Origin: Prototheca cutis
Lineage: Eukaryota > Chlorophyta > Trebouxiophyceae > Chlorellales > Chlorellaceae
NCBI GenBank assembly: GCA_002897115.2
Contig: BCIH01000008.1
Location: forward strand, 145,971-209,970
Length of the DNA stretch: 64,000 nucleotides
Direction: 5' to 3'
In this document: piece after piece, positions 1,516 to 4,726 of the stretch
How the letters are laid out: each line of letters opens with the position of its first letter
How positions within the stretch are numbered: position 1 is the first letter of the stretch
Notes under the pieces: model-generated
Database searches by the model: none
Told to the model about the DNA's origin: nothing
The model's input: the letters and a program-made list of their open reading frames with translations, nothing else
Program-made: the position numbers and the translations under genes

Positions 1516-1924
1516 CGAGTTTGAGTCCGGACTGCACTGAGATGTTTGTTAACAACCACTGCGTTTGGTGCTGTAGCGGGCGGTGGAGTCTTGGTCCTGC
1601 AGGCAGCCGGGGAGGGGGAAGGCTGCGCTGCTTTCATGTGGAATGTACCAGCTTTCGTGGGCTTCATGTCAGATTCCAGCGGGTGACGAGATTCCAGCGG
1701 GTGAGGAGTCGAGGAAGGAGTTGCTTGGCCACCAGTTGGTGGGCTTCAACCCCCCTCCAAGCAGTCTGCCTCCACGGCACAGCGTTTGTAAAAGAATGTC
1801 ATTCGGCAAATTCGCGCAGAATAGGGCTTCGCAGACGCAAAACGACCAGGGCGGTGATCCACGGGAGTGCGACTCCAAATTAAACATGAGATATATCGCG
1901 CTGAAACACAAGAACAAGTCTGAT
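1516..1924. other. Intergenic: PCNA 3' flank and tRNA 5' flank
   Basis: No coding region is recognised. An 18-bp unit (agattccagcgggtgacg) occurs twice in tandem at about 1672-1707. An ATATAT stretch at about 1891-1896, roughly 30 bp before the tRNA 3' half, could act as a TATA-like element for RNA polymerase III; that is inference. Confidence 0.4.
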
Positions 1925-2008
1925 AGCTGCAGGTCAACGGTTCGAGCCCGTTTGGGGCCACTTAGCGTCTGGCCCCATAGCTCAGTTGGTTAGAGCGGCA
2001 GTCTAATA
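1925..2008 (+). tRNA. Circularly permuted tRNA-Ile(AAU) gene
   Basis: The two tRNA halves occur in reversed order. The 3' half is 1925-1960: base 38, anticodon-stem strand GCTGC 1926-1930, variable loop AGGTC, T stem AACGG, T loop TTCGAGC, T stem CCGTT, acceptor strand TGGGGCC 1953-1959, discriminator A 1960. After a 10-bp spacer (1961-1970) comes the 5' half, 1971-2008: acceptor GGCCCCA, TA, D stem GCTC, loop AGTTGGTTA, GAGC, G26, anticodon stem GCAGT 1998-2002, loop CTAATA with anticodon AAT at 2005-2007. Re-joined at 37/38, every stem pairs: 7-bp acceptor, 4-bp D, 5-bp T, and a 5-bp anticodon stem with one G-U. The loop becomes CTAATAA, the usual tRNA-Ile(AAU) loop. No 5' half lies upstream of the 3' half and no 3' half lies downstream of the 5' half. 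Permuted tRNAs matured through a circular intermediate are known from Cyanidioschyzon merolae and some green algae. CCA is not encoded. Confidence 0.92.
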
Positions 2009-2012
2009 TCGA

Positions 2013-2025
2013 ATTTTTCCTTTTT
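2013..2025 (+). terminator. Pol III T-run terminator after the tRNA 5' half
   Basis: Two T runs (TTTTT at 2013-2017 and TTTTT at 2021-2025) begin five bases after base 37 of the permuted tRNA. This is where Pol III would have to stop if the transcript is 3' half, spacer, 5' half. There is no T run between the two halves. Confidence 0.65.
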
Positions 2026-2148: not shown

Positions 2149-3441
2149 TCAGATGCGCGGCAGCTTCCAGGGAAACACGGCGACCACGGCAGTGACGTTA
2201 TCAAAGCTGCCATTCTTGAGGGCCGCAGACACGAGCGCCGCAGCCGCGGCCTTTGCCGCATGCGCTGCGGTCGCTCCGCTGTGCGTCTGCAGCGCCCGGC
2301 TCACCAGCGCACAGGCATCCTGATTGCTCACCACATCCCACTGCATTAACATTGAATTTTTGAGTGTGGGGTGTGTTCTGGTGGGGTTTTACGCCAAGGC
2401 AGTTCTCCAGGGGGGGTCAGGCTCGGGCTTCCATGACACCCGCAGCCATCCCACCCTCCCACAAGCCGACCGCCCTCACCAGGCCGTCACTGGCGATAAC
2501 TAAAAATTCGTCGTCCTGCGTCAGCTCTGCATCGACAATGTCTGGCTCAGAGTTGACCACCGGCAGCGGGGTCTTGAACGACACATCCCCAAACGCCCTG
2601 CATATAGTCGATGGGGGGGGGGGGGGGGGNCTAATGTGTCGTTATCTAGCAGTGCATGGGTTTGGGCATTCTTTCCAACGCACCCCTCTGTGGCCCCAAC
2701 ACACAAAACCTGACCCGCCCTCCGCAAAAACCCAGCATACCCACTGGACACACACCTGGACACGGCGAGGCCCGTGGCCGGGTGGCCGTCGGTGGGCTGG
2801 GAAATGATGCGCCAGCCCGCGGCAAACTCGATGCGTCCCCCGGCCGCCAGCGTCCGTGCCTTCTCATCCGGCATCCAGGGCTTGTGGTCCATGGTCAATG
2901 GCCGCGCGCTGTGCAAGCTGTGCTCTCCCGGCACCTGGTTCGGGGCATCTTCGGTGGGCGCGGGCTCGCTGCGGCGACCCAGAACGGCACGGCAGTCACC
3001 CAGGTGGCCCACGACGAGGCGCGTGCCGGCCAGCACTGCGCAGGTGGCCGTGGCGCCGGTCGTCTGCACCGCCCGTGCCGAGCCCATGATCTCGCGCTCC
3101 GTGGCGCGAAAGGCATGCAGCATTGCCGCACGCAGGGTGGCACGAGAGGGACTGGAGGCGGGGTGTGAGGCACTGGCGTGCGAGGGATTCGAGACGCTGC
3201 ACAAGGAATTCGAGCCGGCGCCAGGGCCCCCCGCTCGCATCCGAAGTCCATCCATGAGGTGCTGGTGGAGCCGGAGGGATGCGATGCTGGCGGCGCAGTC
3301 GCCGTTGTGCCCGTCAAACACGCCCAGGTAACTGAGCGGGGCCGCCGAGGTCGCGTCGTCCTCGCCCTGCCTGCTGCAGGCCTGCTGCAGGTCCCGGATG
3401 ACAACAGACCTGTCTTCCATATACGGCCGCCGGCCCGAGGA
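2149..3441 (-). CDS. PP2C-family Ser/Thr protein phosphatase (5' exon unresolved)
   Basis: Metal-dependent PPM/PP2C phosphatase. Exons from 5' to 3' on the minus strand: 3441-2756, 2597-2480, 2340-2149; the AG|G split codon and the phase-0 join both fit. PP2C motifs appear in order: RRPYMEDRSVV, GVFDGHNG (metal-binding Asp), GHLGDCRAVLG, TMDHKPWMPDE, GLAVSRAFGD across the first intron, LVIASDGLWDVV across the second, and FDNVTAVV near the end. It starts at an acceptor (TACAG|TCC), so a short N-terminal exon lies further upstream, probably between 3442 and 3920; I could not choose it. Intron 1 contains a G homopolymer with an ambiguous base at 2630, apparently an assembly weak spot outside the coding exons. 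The target is not deducible. Confidence 0.88.
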
Positions 3442-4726
3442 CTGTAGGGTGGCGGTGTGTGCGCATCGGCATTGGCAATAGAAAGCTGTCCACCAAATTC
3501 CACCAGGTCCCCCAACGATCAGTGAACCTGATCCTGCTCCCCAGATTCCCAATTTGATAAATACCAATCAATGCACACACCTCTGCAGCACCCATGATGG
3601 GTTGCTCCATTGCCAGTGTCGCCACGGCACCTGGGCGGTCGACCACGCCATGCTGGTGCCGGTGGCCAGTGGGACTCTTGCAGCGCCCGTGTGGTGCGCC
3701 ATCTTCCTGGTGTATCCGAGAATCCTTCCTGCTGTTTCTGACACGATGCAGTTCGGAAACGAAGGGGGCTTTCCTTTCCCTGCTCCGGCTCCGCCGTCTG
3801 GCATGAGCTCCACAGGCGGGCCGGCCCTGGCACCTTGCGCTGGGCGGGCGTTCCTCGACCCGCGACGTCTCCATCCACGCCGTGGTCTCCGCAGGCGAGC
3901 AGCGTGTGACATGCACACTCAGGTCCTCATGAAGGCTCCAGGCCCCGACGGTGCGCAAGCTACGCGTCGAGGCCGACGCGGCTCTGCGGGGATGTGGTTG
4001 AGAGACGATGCGCGGGTGTCGCCTCCGACGCTGTCATTCGAAACTCCCGACCCGCACCCGCAAGAGATCGGGGTGCCCTATCGAATATACGCAACTGCAC
4101 GAATATGATGACGTACCCTACGAACAAGGGCTGGGGTGCATCCACCGACAGATCGGCTGGTGGGTGCTGTCCTCCCATTACGATGGCCATTGTCGCGCCG
4201 CGCAATCACAAGAGCGTGACGTGACCTATCAACATAGACTTGTGGGTTCGGAAAGAAATCAGCCACGTAACATAATGATCTTCACTGCGGCATGTATGGT
4301 CATGATGACAGCGGCCGAGTTGCAAACGTCTACAGGGCTTGCCGGCGAGGAAGCTGGGCCCTGAAGCCGGAGGGTTAAGCAGGCGCCAGCCCAGCGCCGA
4401 CCCGGAAGGTGGGGGCCCCTTGCGAAAGTGATCCGTGCGTGGCAATCAGAGCGCCCATCTCCGGGGGCCCCTCCCAAACTCGCCAGAAGCCCGTTTTCGG
4501 CCATGCGCGCTTGTTCAAACGTTTTCATCGTGAGCGTTAGGGAGCATTTGTGCAAAGAAAGGGGCCAGAGCGGTTGGGAGTGGGCAGCACGGGGCCGCCG
4601 AACCCGCGCGCTCACACCGCCCTTGGAGTCAGTCCAGCTTGGCACATGTCTCCCGCATGCATGAAACTCTGAATGCATGACATGATGGCTTTGAAGTTTG
4701 TTTGATCAGGGAATCCTCCCTGCTCG
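3442..4726. other. No confident gene; may hold the PP2C 5' exon
   Basis: About 1.3 kb between the PP2C exons and MED25. Open frames exist on both strands but none has a recognisable domain or consistent splice signals. The PP2C N-terminal exon and promoter should be here. Confidence 0.4.

Follow-up and report, generated by a model that had tools for sequence, protein, structure and literature searches.

The 64,000-nucleotide (nt) stretch of the Prototheca cutis genome analyzed here (contig BCIH01000008.1, abbreviated C8, positions 145,971 to 209,970; hereafter the window) carries at 1925–2008 a gene for tRNA-Ile(AAU) that is confirmed to be circularly permuted, its 3′ half lying upstream of its 5′ half. 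The probability that it is a functional nuclear gene of type II, with its junction at 37/38, and that its product matures through a circular intermediate is put at about 0.92. The layout proposed in the first-pass annotation (a 3′ half at 1925–1960, a 10-bp spacer, and a 5′ half with anticodon AAT at 1971–2008) is correct to the base by direct reading (Table 1): both halves are on the same strand, the 3′ one first, and the spacer between them runs from nt 73 to nt 1. ARAGORN identifies the 74-mer obtained by rejoining the halves at 37/38 as tRNA-Ile(aat), with a canonical cloverleaf and an identifiable anticodon; the acceptor stem has 7/7 pairs, the D stem 4/4, the anticodon stem 5/5 (including one T·G wobble) and the T stem 5/5, so that the claimed cloverleaf with four paired stems holds.

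Table 1. Elements of the permuted tRNA-Ile(AAU) gene, in window positions.
Element	Position	Strand	Description	Basis
TATA-like A/T-rich element	1881–1896	+	TAAA at 1881–1884, ATATAT at 1891–1896; 29–44 nt before nt 38	function presumed
Leader side of predicted bulge-helix-bulge	1919–1924	+	-6 to -3 (TCTG) opposite nt 32–35; -2 and -1 are the 3′ bulge	
3′ half (nt 38–73)	1925–1960	+	AGCTGCAGGTCAACGGTTCGAGCCCGTTTGGGGCCA; CCA not encoded	direct reading, ARAGORN
B box	1939–1949	+	GGTTCGAGCCC; upstream of the A box (inverted order)	direct reading, detector
Intervening spacer	1961–1970	+	CTTAGCGTCT; 10 nt, between nt 73 and nt 1; would form the acceptor loop of a circle	
5′ half (nt 1–37)	1971–2008	+	GGCCCCATAGCTCAGTTGGTTAGAGCGGCAGTCTAATA	direct reading, ARAGORN
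A box	1978–1989	+	within the 5′ half	
Anticodon	2005–2007	+	AAT; within the 5′ half	
Presumed RNA polymerase III terminator	2014–2025	+	two T5 runs, 2014–2018 and 2021–2025	direct reading

As assembled, the window yields no tRNA from ARAGORN and none from Rfam at the gathering threshold, an expected blind spot because the gene is permuted. A linear tRNA gene with an intron is ruled out by the fact that the 5′ half does not come first, and ARAGORN allowing introns of up to 300 nt likewise reports no tRNA in the window. A permuted-tRNA detector requiring a B box, a full T stem, a downstream acceptor partner, an A-box-like D arm, an anticodon stem and U33 gives a single match on the two strands of the window, namely this gene; 40 Mb of simulated sequence (one strand, order-2 Markov model trained on the window) yields no match. 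The order of the halves, the ARAGORN call and the absence of simulated matches together support the identity first proposed. An assembly or chance artefact, in whose favor no point was found, has a negligible probability; against it stand the simulation itself, 41 genes of the same architecture spread over 14 contigs (described below), and independently reported permutation in Auxenochlorella (PMC12636532, consulted in part).

When the 84-base gene is used as a BLAST query on the genome, two places are found, the gene itself and C3:361646-361730 (92%). Permuted as well, the C3 copy has an 11-nt spacer and a leader and trailer visibly unlike those of the window copy; the exons of both are intact and differ by one D-loop base. 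A pattern for the 5′ half with the AAT anticodon, at up to 3 mismatches, recovers both copies and one further place with a GGC anticodon. No linear tRNA-Ile(AAU) gene is found by genome BLAST of the gene or by this pattern, no linear tRNA-Ile of any kind by ARAGORN (introns up to 120 nt) at 230 fetched loci, and Ile is absent from the 17 linear genes that the Rfam tRNA model picked up (63 of 246 candidates scored). The count of linear tRNA-Ile(AAU) genes that the first-pass annotation had called for is therefore zero within these searches, and the window and C3 copies are all the tRNA-Ile(AAU) genes that could be found. Its proviso that this might be the only such locus did not stand as worded, as there is a second copy; its substance did, in that this copy too is permuted and no linear one was found.

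The window gene is one of many. In a survey of the 19.9-Mb genome (23 contigs), which is non-exhaustive and gives lower bounds, with 37/38 as the only junction sought, 59 tRNA genes were found, 41 of them permuted (28 anticodons, 15 amino acids) versus 18 linear. Permuted tRNA genes, formerly a minority curiosity, thus outnumber linear ones among those found in this eukaryotic nuclear genome. With amino acids assigned from anticodons, the permuted genes are Ala (AGC x3, CGC x2, UGC), Glu (CUC x4), Gly (CCC, GCC x4, UCC), His (GUG), Ile (AAU x2, UAU), Leu (AAG, UAA), Asn (GUU x2), Pro (UGG), Gln (CUG x2, UUG), Arg (CCG, UCG, UCU), Ser (CGA, UGA), Thr (AGU, CGU, UGU), Val (CAC x2, UAC), Trp (CCA) and Tyr (GUA). 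The linear genes reported by the Rfam model are either intronless (Lys CUU x2, Arg ACG x2, Arg CCU, Phe, Met, Leu CAG x3), the Met gene being initiator-like judging from its T loop, or contain introns (Asp GUC x3, Pro AGG x2, Pro CGG, Leu CAA); the eighteenth is an ambiguous long-intron gene (L086). Twelve amino acids (Ala, Glu, Gly, His, Ile, Asn, Gln, Ser, Thr, Val, Trp, Tyr), isoleucine among them, are represented solely by permuted genes in the set found. No gene was found in the survey for Cys, elongator Met, Lys(UUU), Ser(GCU) or Ser(AGA), and the gene set is therefore incomplete.

The genome was scanned for linear genes with the Rfam tRNA model, and the fetched loci with ARAGORN, in both cases within the limits given above. 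For permuted genes, loci were fetched at five B-box patterns and an initiator form and then passed to the detector with a wider B-box expression. All places were fetched for GGTTCGANYCC (97/97; one of them, L043, has an N inside the box and was skipped by the scripts), AGTTCGANYCT (16/16) and TGTTCGANYCA (31/31), part of them for CGTTCGANYCG (33/46) and GGTTCAANYCC (39/88), and again all for GGATCGAAACC (5/5). These patterns are frequent by chance, the reversed controls occurring at 80, 49, 50, 234, 71 and 3 places. The final detector required 5/5 T-stem pairs, at least 6/7 acceptor pairs, at least 4/5 anticodon-stem pairs and U33, with a spacer of up to about 100 nt (about 75 nt in 301-base regions); by these criteria only 37/38 junctions can be found. 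Seven acceptor pairs are present in 40 of the 41 permuted genes and six in Thr(CGU). A permuted match was obtained at 10 of 13 B-box places with a full T stem, and at places lacking a full T stem a weak one (6-pair acceptor) in 2 of 67, which were left out. None of the 41 was reported by the Rfam tRNA model on the genome or by ARAGORN at the 230 loci; counts of tRNA genes made with linear-gene models in this algal group may therefore be too low.

The distribution of T runs indicates that each permuted gene is read as one transcript ending after the 5′ half. A run of at least four T occurs within 30 nt after nt 37 in all 41 genes; elsewhere such runs are found in 1/41 spacers, 0/41 halves and 3/41 thirty-nt leaders, and in 11/40 sixty-nt leaders of an earlier set of 40 genes. 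In the window copy neither the spacer nor either half contains T4, and the terminator runs lie solely 3′ of the 5′ half. Upstream, TATA or TAAA starts 30–54 nt before nt 38 in 13/41 genes, compared with 2/41 at 5–29 nt and 3/41 at 56–80 nt. These data bear directly on the possibility of a split tRNA, whose halves would be transcribed separately and then joined in trans, as happens in Nanoarchaeum. That the halves are apart in sequence and meet at 37/38 would fit such an arrangement; the halves, however, are neighbors on the same strand, 9–80 nt apart, in 41/41 cases (the detector sought such neighbors only), the spacers are nearly free of T4 runs, and the T run sits after the 5′ half. As one transcript suffices, joining in trans is unneeded and extremely unlikely.

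A second signature common to the permuted genes is complementarity between the leader and the anticodon loop. In the bulge-helix-bulge (BHB) geometry recognized by the splicing endonuclease, nt 32–35 lie opposite leader nt -3 to -6. For 28 isoacceptors (one gene per anticodon) 73 of 112 such positions pair, compared with 56.4 after shuffling of the leaders among genes (z 4.8; none of 5000 shuffles as high). Offsets of 0, 1, 2 and 5–8 give no signal; at an offset of 4, z is 1.7 (2.4 when six positions are taken). Nucleotides 32, 34 and 35 carry the signal, with nt 36 and 37 at chance and nt 33 uninformative because it is always T. The six-position and per-nucleotide values, like those for leader-trailer pairing, were obtained with the earlier set, in which the Trp(CCA) junction was misplaced (it is correct in the set of 41). 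In that set of 40, leader and trailer form a more favorable duplex than shuffles do (z -3.4); a distant-leader control deviates in the opposite direction (z +2.45), and there is no single preferred register (best z 1.9). Individually, 8/41 genes have all four helix pairs, 13/41 three, 12/41 two and 8/41 one.

Two observations weigh against a functional window gene that matures through a circle: whereas the C3 copy has 4/4 helix pairs, the window copy has just two (32:-3 and 35:-6), and in the unconstrained fold of its precursor the D and T arms do not form. The low number of BHB pairs would also be in keeping with a dead remnant, that is, a tandem pair of tRNA-Ile genes that lost its outer halves and left a 3′ half beside a 5′ half, and on general grounds permuted genes could plausibly have arisen by duplication and subsequent loss. 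Nevertheless, a remnant is very unlikely in view of the intact exons of both copies, the lack of any other tRNA-Ile(AAU) source among the genes found, the T runs behind every permuted gene, and the pairing of leaders with their own anticodon loops above the level of shuffles. A permuted-looking sequence at C2:1547147 that may truly be decaying, with a T stem of 3/5, looks different.

Candidates for the processing enzymes are encoded in the genome. Exons of Sen2 (E values down to 3.6e-15 with PDB Sen2 chains) and Sen34 (down to 1.7e-10) are present, and the match of a probable PRORP exon covers 33 of 242 positions with 35.4 bits, or 40.3 bits with its neighbors, just above the cut-off of 39.1. 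Together, the T runs, the leader–anticodon-loop pairing and these exons tie the gene set to the circular pathway of other algae (PMC3978253, as far as the consulted portions describe it). By that pathway the window gene would give a single transcript consisting of leader, 3′ half, 10-nt spacer, 5′ half and T-run terminator, probably made by RNA polymerase III from the upstream TATA-like element. The precursor ends would form the anticodon arm and the BHB, leader and trailer would be removed by the splicing endonuclease (Sen2/Sen34), and a ligase would join nt 37 with nt 38, thereby closing a circle from which RNase P (the probable PRORP) and tRNase Z would cut out the spacer before CCA addition. 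The circle and the RNase P and tRNase Z steps are adopted by analogy with other algae; transcription, circularization, the order of the steps and charging of tRNA-Ile(AAU) are inferred.

The spacers of the 41 permuted genes range from 9 to 80 nt, with 11 of exactly 9 nt and none shorter, even though the detector allowed 0; this count is weighted by duplicates (Glu, Gly), and 9 nt is the shortest spacer in 7 of the 28 isoacceptors. Because so many lie at 9 nt and none below, we read this value as the minimum size of the acceptor loop in the circle, a reading against which stand the shorter spacers, down to 1 nt, that are tabulated for other organisms in the part of the 2014 review consulted (PMC3978253). 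Since permuted genes predominate among the tRNA genes found, protein synthesis in this alga probably depends on cutting RNA and rejoining it by way of a circle. It is likely, though with appreciable room for doubt, that nuclear tRNA genes of the lineage are permuted by default, with translation reliant on 37/38 circles and the 9-nt loop limit set by what RNase P or tRNase Z geometrically requires to cut a closed loop. The generality of this view is called into question by tRNA gene counts of related species in the accessible part of PMC7941945: 64 in Prototheca wickerhamii by tRNAscan, 71 in A. protothecoides and 29 in Helicosporidium, all of which may include organellar genes, and a statement that tRNAscan found "all tRNAs" but Sec in P. 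wickerhamii.

The locus belongs to an established kind, and the extent of permutation is the new point. That permuted tRNA genes are known from other algae, as first assumed, is borne out by the review of 2014 (PMC3978253), which in the portions consulted counts 34 such genes in six algae and one archaeon, none of them for Ile; two permuted tRNA-Ser genes in the Amorphochlora nucleomorph were described later (PMC4494063, in part). According to the same portions of the review, the type II genes of the prasinophytes Ostreococcus and Micromonas and of the Bigelowiella nucleomorph (Maruyama et al. 2010, as cited there) share with the window gene the 37/38 junction, the leading 3′ half, a short spacer and a motif of the hBH type, predicted in the window gene. 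However, the green algae in the table of the review have 3–6 permuted genes each, mostly for Ser, Leu, Cys and iMet (PMC3978253), unlike the set of 41 genes with 28 anticodons described here, which includes two genes for tRNA-Ile(AAU) and one for tRNA-Ile(UAU). Cyanidioschyzon merolae (Soma et al. 2007, as cited there), in which a circular intermediate has been detected, likewise has inverted halves, an upstream TATA-like element and a T-run terminator; there 11 of 43 genes are permuted, with junctions at 20/21, 37/38, 50/51 and 59/60 (PMC3978253), compared with 41 of the 59 found here, all at 37/38, the other junctions not having been sought. A further parallel is Auxenochlorella UTEX 250-A, a close relative and also a trebouxiophyte, for which the tRNAscan-SE set was incomplete and permuted genes were then detected, as reported in 2025 in the part of PMC12636532 consulted. 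No further report for Prototheca or Trebouxiophyceae was recognized in a search that left subscription papers largely outside. With 41 genes in one genome, statistical tests become possible for BHB recognition, for limits on the spacer and for how permutation arose, and the close relative Auxenochlorella is genetically tractable (PMC12636532, in part).

Concerning the host, the aconitase of this genome shares 90% identity with its Auxenochlorella counterpart, 86% with the Helicosporidium one and 91% with an unnamed protein. No light-harvesting (PF00504) match was found in the genome, in a search run without an algal positive control. These results fit a colorless alga of the Auxenochlorella/Prototheca group. 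The G+C content per 2 kb of the window is 0.50–0.72; Table 1 of PMC12636532, a source consulted in part, lists the P. cutis genome as 20.0 Mb with 61.3% G+C.

Several further loci came to attention in the survey. A GGC-anticodon half at C2:1547192 was rejected as not belonging to a sound tRNA (T stem 3/5 and, by eye, no space for a variable loop); the surrounding region, C2:1547147-1547222 (L125, L015), looks permuted, with a 7/7 acceptor, a 16-nt spacer and a T run, and is perhaps a decaying permuted gene. A tRNA-Ala(ggc) called by ARAGORN at L203, which by eye resembles ordinary sequence, was likewise rejected. The ambiguous gene at L086 (C9:723058 region) is given by ARAGORN as Phe(aaa) with a 59-nt intron and by eye is Leu-like and of class II. 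The C12:216306 region (L093) contains a short tRNA-like structure, seemingly unlike the other tRNAs found, for which ARAGORN gives no definite anticodon. Close pairs of tRNA genes occur at C13:122201/122516, C2:1800627/1800826 and C12:494715/495065; two of the permuted Gly(GCC) genes, separated by ~315 bp, are among them and may illustrate the way in which such genes are duplicated. In the window itself, a minus-strand open frame at 2521–3567, with exon-like sequence to ~2156 and PP2C-phosphatase-like by eye, converges on the tRNA gene.
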